From Nitrospirota bacterium (GTDB taxonomy: Bacteria > Nitrospirota > Thermodesulfovibrionia > Thermodesulfovibrionales > UBA1546), in NCBI GenBank assembly GCA_016208915.1, contig JACQXE010000037.1, positions 68,905-101,757 on the forward strand: 32,853 nt of DNA. Reading direction: 5' to 3'. A program made the position numbers and the translations under genes. Below the pieces are notes generated by a model. The model saw only the letters and a list, made by a program, of their open reading frames with translations. It was not told the origin of the DNA and made no database searches. This document shows positions 13,483 through 18,141 of this stretch, piece after piece; position 1 is the stretch's first letter, and each line of letters starts with the position of its first letter.

Positions 13483-13923
13483 TTATAGTGAAACGCTTTT
13501 TCTTAATCCATCAATAAATTCTTTTACCTTTTCTTTTATCTCATCTCTTGCCCTTCTGAATTCTTTCATTATCTGTTCTTCTGTGCCGATTGTCCCAACC
13601 GGGTCTTTGATGGGCCAGTGCATACGTTTTATCTCAGACGGAGTCCAAGGGCAGAATTCTTCGGCATTAATGCAGAGAGTAACGATTATATCCATTTTCC
13701 TCAGAAAATCTCTGTCTATCTCTTTTGACTGCTGTTTTGAGATGTCTATGCCCAATTCCTGCATAACCGCAATTGCTTTCGGATGAACAATTGTTTCCAT
13801 AAGACCTGCGCTGTAAGTTTCGATGATGTCTTTGGCGAATTCTCTTGCAAAGCCTTCTGCCATCTGGCTCCTGCAGGAATTGCCTGTGCACAGGAATATT
13901 ACTTTTGATAATTTACTTTTCAT
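13483..13923 (-). CDS. arsC: Arsenate reductase, thioredoxin-coupled (LMW phosphatase-like)
   Basis: The 146-residue protein reduces arsenate to arsenite for export. It has the low-molecular-weight phosphatase fold: the P-loop CTGNSCR near residue 11-17 holds the nucleophilic cysteine, the acidic DPVG segment near 107 supplies the general acid, and VTLCINAEEFCP gives a Cys pair seven residues apart. That matches the Cys82/Cys89 relay of the S. aureus enzyme, so electrons should come from thioredoxin rather than glutaredoxin. It is the last arsenic gene of the run, 33 bases after the Usp gene and 11 bases before the unrelated membrane glycosyltransferase gene. No clear ribosome site was seen at the ATG. 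Confidence 0.93.
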   Translation of the reverse strand: MKSKLSKVIFLCTGNSCRSQMAEGFAREFAKDIIETYSAGLMETIVHPKAIAVMQELGIDISKQQSKEIDRDFLRKMDIIVTLCINAEEFCPWTPSEIKRMHWPIKDPVGTIGTEEQIMKEFRRARDEIKEKVKEFIDGLRKSVSL

Positions 13924-13956: not shown

Positions 13957-14844
13957 TTAAATCCTTTCTAGGCATTGTGGGCTTTTGATTAGCAATACAG
14001 GTCTATCGCTGTACTCAACAACGTTTCTTGAAACAGAACCCCAAAGCATCCCTTCAACATATCCCTTTCCGTGAGAGCCCATAATAATGAGAGATACATC
14101 CTCTTCTTGGGCTATCTTTATGAGGTCAGTTCCTGCCTTACCAACATGCAAATGGGTTTTTACTTTGATGCCTTCCATTCCAATGTCCTGTCTGATAAGC
14201 TCTAACTTCTTCTGGTCTATCTCCTTGAATTCCTTGAATCTGTCAGCAGGTTGAAGTCTCATGGCCTTTTCATCCATGACATGGGCGACAACAACCTCTT
14301 CAACCCCAGCATCTTTTAATCCCCTGAGATATTTCGATGCTATCTCTGCACAGTCTGACCAGTCTGTTGGATAAAGTATTTTGTGAAAGACCCTTTCGCA
14401 TAATCTCTCGCATGCCTTTTTGTCTTCTAAAAAAGTTGCAGGATATTTAGGAACATATACAGGGAAATGCCCATAACGTATAACCTTATCAGTAGTTGAA
14501 CCGATAAATATCTCTCCGAAAATCCCTTTTTTCTGTCGGCCGGATACGATAAGCGATACCCTCTCATTATCAGCAACTTTCAATATCTCTTTATAAGGAA
14601 CTCCTACTTCTATCCTTTTCTTTGCCTTGAGCCCTGAATCTTCAATAACTTTGAGTGCCTGTTGCATCTTTGTATTGGCAGACTTTACGAGTTTCTTTAT
14701 ATTGGTGGCATGAGTAAGGGGATCAGCATCAATTACATGGAGTAATATTATCTCTTCTGTCCCTACTTTTTTAAAATTCAAAACATATGAAAGGACGTCA
14801 ATTGAAAACTCTTCGAATTTTGTCGGATACAGTATCTTTCTATA
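13957..14844 (-). CDS. Universal stress protein with two Usp domains
   Basis: The 295-residue product has two tandem Usp domains, starting MYRKILYPTKFEEF and FHKILYPTDWSDCAE (about 150). The second retains the ATP-binding signature GxxG-9x-GS (GSHGKG...LWGS near 260). The first has a changed version (GRQKKG...IGST). Usp proteins are small ATP-binding stress factors; here the gene sits inside an arsenic operon, seven bases after acr3, so co-expression under metalloid stress is likely. A longer frame would add 20 residues, but the chosen ATG (14842-14844) has AAAGGAG nine bases upstream and begins at the conserved domain edge. The biochemical role is not known. Confidence 0.88.
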   Translation of the reverse strand, partial: YRKILYPTKFEEFSIDVLSYVLNFKKVGTEEIILLHVIDADPLTHATNIKKLVKSANTKMQQALKVIEDSGLKAKKRIEVGVPYKEILKVADNERVSLIVSGRQKKGIFGEIFIGSTTDKVIRYGHFPVYVPKYPATFLEDKKACERLCERVFHKILYPTDWSDCAEIASKYLRGLKDAGVEEVVVAHVMDEKAMRLQPADRFKEFKEIDQKKLELIRQDIGMEGIKVKTHLHVGKAGTDLIKIAQEEDVSLIIMGSHGKGYVEGMLWGSVSRNVVEYSDRPVLLIKSPQCLERI

Positions 14845-14851
14845 CATTGGT

Positions 14852-15904
14852 TTACTCCTTTCCACTAAAAAACTTATGCTCTGTCTTTTTTGCAAACCAT
14901 ACAAGCACGAGCATTACAGGTACCTCTATCAACGGGCCGATTACCGTTGCCAAAGCTACTGTCGGGTTAAAGGCAGTAATTGCAATTGCAATAGCTATTT
15001 CAAAATCCCTACCCGTAGAATTGAATCCTACAGCCACTGCGTCTTTATAATTCAGACCCAGCTTCCACCCGACAAGATAGACAACAACAAACATAATCCA
15101 GAAAAAGATGGTCATAGGGATAGCCATCTGGACAATAAGCATCGGCTTTTCAAGTATCAAATCGCCTTTTAAGGCAAACATGACAATGAGGGTAAAAAGC
15201 AGCCCTATGATTGACAGCGTATCGAGATAAAATTTGAGTTTATGAAACCATTTCTCACCGAATCTCTTTACCCCTAAGAACCTTGTAAGCATTCCTGCAA
15301 TTAGGGGAATGCCTAAATAAAGAAGAACGCTTTCACCTACAACCCAAACATCAAAACGGACATCGCCTAACAAGAGCTTGGCATAGACCGGAATCAGCAT
15401 CATCTGAATTATGGAGTTCAGCGCAACCAGTATTATTGCAAGGGGACCGTTGCCGGCAGAAAGGTAGGTGAAGACTATTACCATCGCAATACATGGGGCG
15501 AGTCCGTATAGGACAAGCCCTGTATATAGATCTGGTTCACCGCTCAAGAATATCTTTGCGAGCAGGAGCATAAAGAACGGGGCAACTGCATAGTTGAAAA
15601 ACACCACAATAAGGAGCTGTTTCGGCGAGCGAGTTGCTTTTCCCAAATCCTCAAACTTTATGTTTGCCATTGCCGGATACATCATCATGAAAAGACCGAC
15701 AATAACACCAAGTGCAAGGGTATTTGAGATGCTGAACTCATATGTGCCGTGAAATATTGATTTAATGGCATCAATGGGCGGCGTCAATTCAAAATTGGAA
15801 ATGCCATACCACTTGCCGATGACTATACCGATGACCATGCTGACAATGACAAATACTGGTAAAAGCCTGAAGTTGTGCAATTTTTCAAGAAACTTTTTAA
15901 TCAT
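14852..15904 (-). CDS. acr3: ACR3-family arsenite efflux permease
   Basis: This 350-residue protein with about ten membrane helices is an ACR3 (BASS superfamily) arsenite exporter. Landmarks are [16 protein letters not shown] near 73-88, the conserved cysteine in [21 protein letters not shown] (about 138), and the late [14 protein letters not shown] segment (about 296). The cysteine is essential for As(III) transport in studied members. The ATG overlaps the arsR stop by four bases, so the two are translationally coupled. With ArsC it forms the standard reduce-and-export route. Some annotations call this gene arsB, but the sequence is of the ACR3, not the ArsB, family. Confidence 0.93.
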
Positions 15905-16284
15905 CCCTTACCTCTGCAACATCTGTTCTTAGTCTTGATACTGACGACCTTTATCTTGGCCTCTTTTGATTCCAGAAATTTATCCAGCCTTTTTCTATCT
16001 TCAGATATCGCGTTGTCTGTAACCCTTTCAAGCACAGAAAACAATAAAAACCGTTTTAATATATCCGAAGCATCAATACTATAGTGAATCCATTTGCCAT
16101 GTTTCCTGTCTTTAATAAACCCGGCCTTTTTTAAAACGCATAGATGAAAGGAAACCTTGGGCTGTATCATACCCAGCGCAGCCATGATGTCGCATACGCA
16201 TAGTTCACCTTGCTCAAGTATTTTCAATATCCTGAGTCTCGTTTCATCAGACAGGGCTTTGAAAATAATCAACAACTTTTTCAT
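15901..16284 (-). CDS. arsR: ArsR-family metalloregulator
   Basis: The 127-residue repressor has the winged-helix ArsR fold: [12 protein letters not shown] at 9-20, then [12 protein letters not shown] with Cys29 and Cys31, the classic As(III)-sensing pair at the start of the recognition region, followed by [27 protein letters not shown]. An additional Cys near 49 and a C-terminal Cys pair (about 122-123) may add a third ligand. Arsenite binding would release DNA. The ATG at 16282-16284 is two bases after the stop of the upstream thioredoxin-like gene; an ATG six codons earlier overlaps that gene. It is encoded in the middle of the operon it probably controls. A 26-bp AT palindrome at 18150-18175 is a likely operator. 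Confidence 0.9.
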
Positions 16285-16286
16285 GA

Positions 16287-16526
16287 TTACATCTCTGCCC
16301 ATATTAAATCTTTGACTTTTTCAGGGCTCGGTAAAGGTTTTCCTGAATGTTTCAGTTTACCATTTATGATAAGTCCGGGTGTTGACATGGTGTATTTCAT
16401 TATTTCCTGAATATCAGAAACCTTTTCTATCCTTGCATCTATCCCTAACTCTTTTACAGCTGCCTTTGCCATCTCTTCCATCTTGTGGCAGTTCGGACAT
16501 CCCGGACCTAATACTTTAATCTCCAT
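16287..16526 (-). CDS. Small CxxC thioredoxin-like protein
   Basis: This 79-residue single-domain protein belongs to the small redox-active disulfide (thioredoxin/glutaredoxin-like) family. The start [16 protein letters not shown] gives the active-site CPNC at residues 10-13; a cis-proline follows in STPGLIING (near 50). It has no signal peptide, so it acts in the cytoplasm. In an arsenic operon it may pass electrons to ArsC or handle arsenite-bound thiols; both are inference. It is coupled to arsR with two bases between stop and start. The gap of 56 bases upstream is the largest in the operon apart from its front end. Confidence 0.88.
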
Positions 16527-16582: not shown

Positions 16583-16879
16583 TTATCCTTTACATCTATA
16601 ATAGATGCTGCAGCAAGCACTTTGCCCGCTCTCTGCATTTGTCCATTCTTCCAAGTATTTTCCTTCAATCCATATGCGATTAGACTGTGAAGGGTCTTTA
16701 TGAAATGTGTCAAAATTTATAGCTATTTTTTCTAAAACAATTTCCATTCCTAATGGTGCAAGAGATTGTTTAAGTTTGATAAGAGCTTTTTCAATCTCAT
16801 TTTCTGTTGAACCACATCTCTGGCAGGTCTGATTTTTTTCATCTAACAAGCGCTGCCATTTAATCGTGAGTGTTTTCAT
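16583..16879 (-). CDS. DUF2703 protein, short C-terminus
   Basis: This 98-residue protein matches the DUF2703 family, often seen near arsenic and redox genes. Visible features: TIKWQRLL at the start, TCQRCGSTENEI with Cys19 and Cys22, a central SLAPLGMEIVLEKI segment, SNRIWIEGKYLEEW, and QSACC at 86-90. As I recall the family it normally runs further past the CC pair, with another cysteine motif; here it reads SIYYRCKG and stops at TAA. It may be a natural short form or be truncated by a small mutation. Function is unknown; the two Cys pairs suggest metal, metalloid or thiol chemistry. The ATG is three bases after the stop of the preceding extended frame, with AAGAAGG as ribosome site. Confidence 0.75.
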   Translation of the reverse strand: MKTLTIKWQRLLDEKNQTCQRCGSTENEIEKALIKLKQSLAPLGMEIVLEKIAINFDTFHKDPSQSNRIWIEGKYLEEWTNAESGQSACCSIYYRCKG

Positions 16880-16882
16880 ATA

Positions 16883-17188
16883 TCATGCCTTCTTAATTTT
16901 TCTTATTGTTTCCCTTATGGTTTCTACTGAAGGGACTTGCAGGAGTCTTCCAGACTCATCCCTGAATAACCTTCAGGAAAAACCTTGGTTATCAACAGGC
17001 TGGATAGCCTCTCCGTCGATAAGCACAGAAGGCGACCCCTTTAGTCCAAGAGTATTCGCTTCATCATTGGTGATGCAGTAAAAGCTGACATCAGCATGTA
17101 TGCGCTCAAGGGATAAAGCCTTTGAGATGTTATCCCTGAGCTCAGCTTCTGTGCCGCAGTGTGTTGATATATAACAATCTATTTTCAT
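16883..17188 (-). CDS. Probable selenocysteine-containing thioredoxin-like protein (UGA at codon 72)
   Basis: The frame starts at ATG 17186-17188 and runs 71 codons to a TGA at 16973-16975, then stays open for 29 codons to a TGA at 16883-16885, three bases before the next start. The product reads MKIDCYISTHCGTEAEL (Cys5, Cys11), a thioredoxin-like core with GSPSVLIDG, QGFS-U-RLFRDESG, then PSVETIRETI. From memory, related proteins have Cys at the UGA position (SCRLY-type segment). A hairpin GAGTCT-GGA-AGACTC follows 15 bases after the UGA, with its loop 21 bases from it and G at the loop start, which fits bacterial SECIS rules. So UGA is likely read as selenocysteine. If not, it is a 71-residue truncated protein. 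The upstream permease gene ends two bases before. Confidence 0.65.
16943..16957 (-). promoter_or_regulatory. Candidate SECIS hairpin
   Basis: On the minus strand GAGTCT-GGA-AGACTC forms a perfect 6-bp stem with a GGA loop (or a 5-bp stem with loop TGGAA). A further CAG/CTG pairing is possible outside with a bulge. It begins 15 bases after the in-frame UGA at 16973-16975. The position and the G at the loop start match the published consensus for bacterial SECIS elements. The stem also codes for residues DESGRLL. Confidence 0.5.
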
Positions 17189-17190
17189 TT

Positions 17191-18141
17191 CTATAAAATT
17201 GCGTTGAACAGGTAGCCAACCAATATTATGGTTACAGTCATAATGGTAACAAATACACCAAGCAGTTTTATCTTCAGTGCCTTTCGCAAAATTATTATTT
17301 CTGGCAATGACAGAGCAGTAACTGCCATCATAAAGGCAAGAACAGTTCCGATGCTCAGCCCTTTTTCCATCAATGCATAGACAATAGGTATTACCCCTGC
17401 AGCATTTGAATAGAGGGGTACTCCAATTGCGACTGCAACAGGCACTGCAAAAGGATTCTGAGGGCCTGCGTAATATGCGAGAAAATCCTGTGGTACATAA
17501 CCGTGAATGAATCCTCCAATGCCGATAGCAATTATAATGAATAGCCAGACTCTTTTTAAGATGTCAGCAGTATTCCATTTTGCATACTGTATTCTATCTC
17601 TGAAGGTCTGACGGGTTATTTCCTGATCATGGTTCAGGTGAAACTTATAGACGTATTCCTCAACCCATTTCTCCAGCCTTAACTTGCCTATAATAAATCC
17701 TCCAAGCAAGGCAACAAGGAGCCCAGTTCCCATATAGATAGCTGCTATCTTCCATCCGAAAAGCCCCCAGAGAAGCACTACCGCCACTTCATTCACCATT
17801 GGGGAAGATATAAGAAAAGAAAAGGTTACTCCGAGCGGCACGCCTGCCTCAACAAAACCTATAAACAACGGAACCGCAGAGCATGAACAGAATGGCGTAA
17901 CAACGCCAAGCAGGGCTGCAAGAATATTACCTATAAATTCTTTTTTATGTGAGAGGATTCTCTTGGTCCTCTCAGGAGGGAAGTAGCTTCTTACTACAGA
18001 AACCGCAAATATTATAACAGAAAGAAGCAGGAATATCTTAGTGGTGTCATAGATAAAGAATTCAAGAGCGTTTGCAAGCATGGAACCATGCTCAAGCCCT
18101 ATCATGTTGTATGTTATATATGTGGAAACCTGTTTTAGCAT
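17191..18141 (-). CDS. ArsP-like permease (DUF318 family)
   Basis: The 316-residue protein is an integral membrane permease of the DUF318/ArsP family, with about eight helices in two halves. Landmarks are the double-cysteine motif TPFCSCSAVPLF near 81-92, SSPMVNEVAV near 107, a long charged cytoplasmic loop (about 155-190), and the second-half repeat GVPLYSNAAGVIPI near 240. ArsP members export trivalent organoarsenicals; other members are tied to metal resistance. It is the first gene behind an AT palindrome and leads the arsenic operon, with two bases between its stop and the next start. ATG at 18139-18141; the ribosome site is weak (CCAGG), and an ATG at residue 21 is an alternative. Confidence 0.85.
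   Translation of the reverse strand: MLKQVSTYITYNMIGLEHGSMLANALEFFIYDTTKIFLLLSVIIFAVSVVRSYFPPERTKRILSHKKEFIGNILAALLGVVTPFCSCSAVPLFIGFVEAGVPLGVTFSFLISSPMVNEVAVVLLWGLFGWKIAAIYMGTGLLVALLGGFIIGKLRLEKWVEEYVYKFHLNHDQEITRQTFRDRIQYAKWNTADILKRVWLFIIIAIGIGGFIHGYVPQDFLAYYAGPQNPFAVPVAVAIGVPLYSNAAGVIPIVYALMEKGLSIGTVLAFMMAVTALSLPEIIILRKALKIKLLGVFVTIMTVTIILVGYLFNAIL

Follow-up and report, generated by a model that had tools for sequence, protein, structure and literature searches.

The closest described relatives of the protein reported here make up the "hypothetical protein DF" family, which came out of the deep-Sep work of Xiao & Zhang (2025; PMC12013277), is represented by the curated model NF049942 and is listed in a 2026 review (PMC13188914). 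In the deep-Sep paper Sec was described from one Desulfosediminicola only and no TGA-containing homologues were reported (PMC12013277). A second point of comparison is the selenocysteine-assisted organometallic (Sao) system. The locus studied here resembles it in that a small thioredoxin-like selenoprotein adjoins organometal genes, the neighbouring permease resembles SaoE, and some relatives of the protein carry a fused SaoL/MerB-like lyase domain. It differs in that all of the SaoE- and SaoL-type matches among the operon neighbours and relatives compared lie below the cut-offs of the Sao models, and the SaoT model NF040730 gave no match to the selenoprotein among those listed up to E 10. The MTH895/ArsE-family and MJ0307-type thioredoxins, with solved structures 1ilo and 1fo5, share the thioredoxin-like fold and give weak profile matches over residues 1-60, but the protein of this locus is without their CxxC at helix 1 and its second invariant residue is the predicted Sec72 in a C-terminal loop. 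The groundwater survey of Deng et al. (2026), as cited in PMC13188914, contains unvalidated candidates, and these could include the clade described below. Our literature search found no paper that connects this selenoprotein with ArsP, with Nitrospirota or with arsenic.

The window analysed is a stretch of 32,853 nucleotides from a Nitrospirota bacterium (Table 1). The first-pass annotation had placed a probable new selenoprotein within an arsenic operon at 16883-17188; that position stands, and we add the strand, which it had not given and which is minus. The gene starts with ATG at 17188-17186, has an in-frame UGA at codon 72 and continues through 29 sense codons to TGA at 16885-16883; three bases on, at 16879, the DUF2703 gene begins with its ATG. 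These coordinates agree with the first-pass reading, as does the recomputed intergenic gap of 93 bases that termination at the UGA would leave. The read-through product, translated with UGA as U, has the form MKIDCYISTHC...GSPSV...GFSURLFRDESGRL...VPSVETIR..., and no Pfam model matched it at E 0.001. On the minus strand the gene order is ArsP_1/SaoE-like permease, selenoprotein, DUF2703, ArsE-family thioredoxin, ArsR, ACR3, Usp and ArsC, with the permease ending 2 bases upstream of the selenoprotein start. By the profile matches of its neighbours (ArsP_1, ArsE-like, ArsR, ACR3, ArsC), the gene is part of an arsenic operon.

Table 1. Features of the locus, in the order in which they are read on the minus strand, with the evidence for each.
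Feature	Position	Strand	Evidence
ArsP_1/SaoE-like permease	17191..18141	minus	PF03773 E 7.7e-81; NF040736 (SaoE) 132.7 bits (cut-off 325, not reached)
Predicted selenoprotein gene, 101 residues, Sec72, thioredoxin-like	16883..17188	minus	read-through translation, alignment, fold model
UGA codon 72, predicted to be read as Sec	16973..16975	minus	UGA invariant in relatives; Cys in remote homologues
SECIS-like hairpin GAGUC(U)-GGA-(A)GACUC	16943..16957	minus	fold, pairing in 56 sequences, synonymous codon bias
DUF2703 protein, next downstream gene	16583..16879	minus	PF10865 E 3.9e-26
MTH895/ArsE-family thioredoxin-like protein	16287..16526	minus	PF13192; TIGR00412 88.8 bits, over cut-off 62
ArsR-family regulator	15901..16302	minus	PF01022 E 2.4e-18
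ACR3-type arsenite efflux transporter	14852..15904	minus	PF01758; TIGR00832 263.6 bits, just under cut-off 282.8
Universal stress protein (Usp)	13957..14904	minus	PF00582
ArsC-like arsenate reductase, thioredoxin type	13483..13923	minus	PF01451; TIGR02691 169.8 bits, just under cut-off 174.3

We propose, with a probability of roughly 0.9, that this gene encodes a small thioredoxin-fold selenoprotein in a metal(loid)-linked setting. The evidence begins with its relatives. Among 396 Nitrospirota genomes searched with the read-through product, 54 held relatives, and a search with NF049942 added more; the viral contigs, searched with the single window protein, yielded none. Translation with U written for UGA showed the codon at the identical place in 60 sequences, 59 of them distinct, and about 55 Nitrospirota genomes besides that of the window carry it at the same codon, with the tail GFSURMF.DESGRL..VPSVE..R kept in nearly all. 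In the alignment of 59 sequences, in which the aligner writes U as C, the UGA occupies a single column, identity to the window protein is 24-68%, the residues C11, G51, S52, P53, U72, R73 and P86 are invariant, and the tail behind the UGA ranks among the best conserved parts. Homologues do align past codon 71, as the first-pass reading would lead one to expect, and because 59 sequences share the column and the tail is so well kept, the UGA is more than a chance occurrence. The same TGA in dozens of other genomes rules out, for practical purposes, a misread base at 16973-16975. Neither UAA nor UAG was seen at codon 72 among the relatives in the clade of the window protein. Two relatives deviate in other respects: in L092 (G236:C83) the reading frame breaks before the Sec codon and the remainder lies in another frame, from a frameshift or an assembly error, and L077:2992-3294 (minus strand) reads MKIECYLSHGUSSEE, with a further in-frame UGA in place of Cys11, and may be a double-Sec protein or, alternatively, a draft-genome error.

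The first-pass annotation had stated that homologues have Cys at codon 72, and this is so in nine distant homologues (L095, L096, L050-L053, L106-L108), in which Cys aligns to the UGA column and the frame is uninterrupted. L095 scores 116.7 bits against NF049942. In L050-L053 a Cys-form DF domain is followed in frame by an ArsC-like domain of the low-molecular-weight phosphatase type (the profile test was run on L050 only), and the genomes that carry them are of the same order and have selA, while L106-L108 are Cys-form proteins of actinobacterial plasmids annotated as alkylmercury lyase (MerB-like). Fusions also occur among the Sec forms, four of which are joined to a MerB domain (L025:1501-2484, L035:1501-2484, L043:864-1847 and L041:814-1794). 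One of these was run against NCBIfam and its nearest model was SaoL, at a score below the SaoL cut-off; three of the four lie next to a reductase from a cluster represented by MerA.

The window protein is homologous to the DF family over 89 residues (E 2.8e-11), with Sec and Cys in the same aligned column and with C11, GSP and the C/U-R motif common to both. It differs in that it reaches 43.3 bits against a cut-off of 70, in the Sec-flanking motif of its clade (GFSURMFxDESGRLxNVPSVE), and in that UGA is present in dozens of Nitrospirota genomes as against one Desulfosediminicola. Because it is homologous and yet below the NF049942 cut-off, we file it in a homologous sister clade and not as a DF member. 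Of the first-pass wording, "selenoprotein" holds on the conserved UGA, the Cys homologues and the machinery described below, whereas "new" has to be qualified for a divergent DF relative under the cut-off. By sequence comparison, the predicted protein represents a branch, so far undescribed, of a selenoprotein family that received its name in 2025, and not a wholly new kind. It should be noted that two other UGA-bearing proteins, L049 and L097 (G370, same class), do score over the DF cut-off, as against none in PMC12013277, and that their hairpins, of the GGGCAUC-GUC-GAUGCCC type, are unlike those of the window clade in sequence.

Refolding confirmed the hairpin that the first-pass annotation had described, with six base pairs and a GGA loop 21 bases after the UGA. 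The element GAGUCU-GGA-AGACUC spans positions 19-33 counted from the U of the UGA, so that a hairpin with a G-containing apical loop, as in a SECIS, stands 3' of the recoded codon. Its upper stem is 87% paired across 56 sequences, and the upper stem together with a nine-pair lower stem is 79% paired compared with 31-46% in slid controls, a comparison that partly favours a structure derived from one of the compared sequences. Codon choice follows the same pattern. At codon +6 all 43 Glu codons are GAG, against 49% upstream in these genes; at codon +10, CTC accounts for 48 of 56 Leu codons, against 22% upstream; at codon +7, Ser is always TCN; and codons +6 and +10 are fully paired in 49 of 57. 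The binomial p-values for this bias ignore kinship and serve as indications only. RNAalifold returned no consensus structure on the 48-column alignment, and the folding energy of the full segment was only slightly lower than that of synonymously recoded versions (mean z -0.78), hence the support for the hairpin rests on the counts of named pairs and on the synonymous codon bias. A scan of the window against Rfam at gathering scores gave no match. On these counts the synonymous codons after the UGA are constrained in the way that the hairpin demands.

Searching the genome for selA, selB, selC and selD, the check that the first-pass annotation had called for, located all four: selA, selB, selD and a tRNA-Sec with anticodon UCA are present, each over its curated cut-off. 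The SelD of the same genome (L105, C18:13866-14783) also has an in-frame UGA with a similar hairpin behind it. All 56 UGA-form genomes tested have at least one part of the Sec machinery over cut-off, and 50 of the 56 have selA over cut-off; selA is present as fragments in G274 and G033 and absent in four draft genomes (G142, G211, G402, G084), selB over cut-off is absent in G142 and G084, and each of these six genomes has selB or tRNA-Sec over cut-off. The genomes of the distant Cys-form proteins L095 and L096 (G243 and G021) gave no selA, selB or tRNA-Sec over the cut-offs. As many relatives that lack the selenoprotein gene have selA too, we regard it as necessary but not discriminating, and the distribution of the machinery as a consistency test only.

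These observations bear on how the codon is decoded. Translation with table 11 ends at the UGA, and the resulting 71-residue protein would keep most of the thioredoxin core, so one might take the UGA as a true stop and the 29 later codons as a stretch left open by chance or the decayed end of a gene. We consider this extremely improbable, given a tail strongly kept in dozens of genomes and in stop-free Cys homologues, a codon that is never UAA or UAG, and the wide gap that termination would leave in an otherwise tight operon. Scarcely more credible is insertion of Trp or Cys by near-cognate suppression in place of Sec: such read-through of UGA is a known phenomenon and the homologues do carry Cys, but the genome holds the full Sec machinery, the codons behind the UGA show a constraint compatible with the hairpin, and SelD provides a second UGA selenoprotein in the same genome. 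The probable recoding of the UGA as Sec is strongly supported by the comparative evidence, and we propose that SelB would decode codon 72 as Sec, guided by the hairpin just downstream.

An AlphaFold2 model built from four sequences is thioredoxin-like (pLDDT 84.7), with the strand and helix order of that fold and a predicted cis-Pro-type loop at Pro53. Its best structural neighbours are thioredoxins at Z of about 9, a level that shows the fold only. Cys11 directly precedes helix 1 in the model, Sec72 lies in a loop of lower confidence (pLDDT 64-73), and the motif at helix 1 is a lone invariant Cys within CG[ST]E rather than CxxC. Because both residues are invariant in the Sec and Cys forms, we infer that the two would work as a pair, Cys11 from the mouth of helix 1 and Sec72 from the loop that follows the cis-Pro-type GSP strand.

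The genomic setting points to arsenic or organometal chemistry. Searches by tblastn with the window's own proteins placed ars neighbours in 15 examined loci, the window included, and an ArsP-like permease lies upstream on the same strand in nine, again with the window included. In six other loci a reductase of a single cluster lies near by, and the sequence that represents this cluster scores over the MerA cut-off. Most of the other loci have no recognised ars or mer neighbour within the stretch examined, often only 1.5 kb on each side, so that a role specific to arsenic is no more than tentative. The same majority, together with the thioredoxin fold, would suit a Sec protein that serves redox homeostasis in general, as a thioredoxin or a reductant of peroxides, and whose recruitment to ars and mer operons is incidental. 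We think this unlikely in view of the ars neighbours in 15 loci, the MerA-type reductase adjoining in six, the four MerB/SaoL-like fusions, and the Cys-form fusions to ArsC and to actinobacterial MerB-like domains. A metal(loid)-binding chaperone or shuttle, with Cys11 and Sec72 as ligands and no redox catalysis, is a better candidate, although still a tentative one. It would account for the combination of a distant Sec with a single invariant Cys at helix 1, where the motif is CG[ST]E and not CxxC, and the Sec of the SaoB, SaoC and UXX-star families has been suggested in review to be a metal ligand (PMC13188914); nothing specific speaks against it, but the thioredoxin fold and the ArsC fusion suit redox chemistry equally.

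With regard to the exact chemistry of the proposed selenoprotein, our suggestion is a guarded one, namely that it may bind or reduce an arsenical or organometal and would serve the adjacent permease or reductase as a redox partner or as a shuttle for the metal(loid). Equally provisional is a reading that takes in the whole Sec clade, in which the Cys11-Sec72 unit might be a shared module for arsenical and organomercurial detoxification that delivers or strips the metal(loid) for each partner. These partners would be ArsP/SaoE-like permeases, served by the stand-alone protein, MerB/SaoL-like lyases next to MerA, to which it is fused, and ArsC, to which the Cys form is fused.

Standard annotation would truncate the selenoprotein at residue 71, and the curated model of the nearest named family (NF049942) would miss the window protein. 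The clade is widespread in Nitrospirota. It would tie selenium use to arsenic and organomercury handling, add to the few known Sec-assisted metal(loid) systems and offer a defined Cys/Sec pair for testing.
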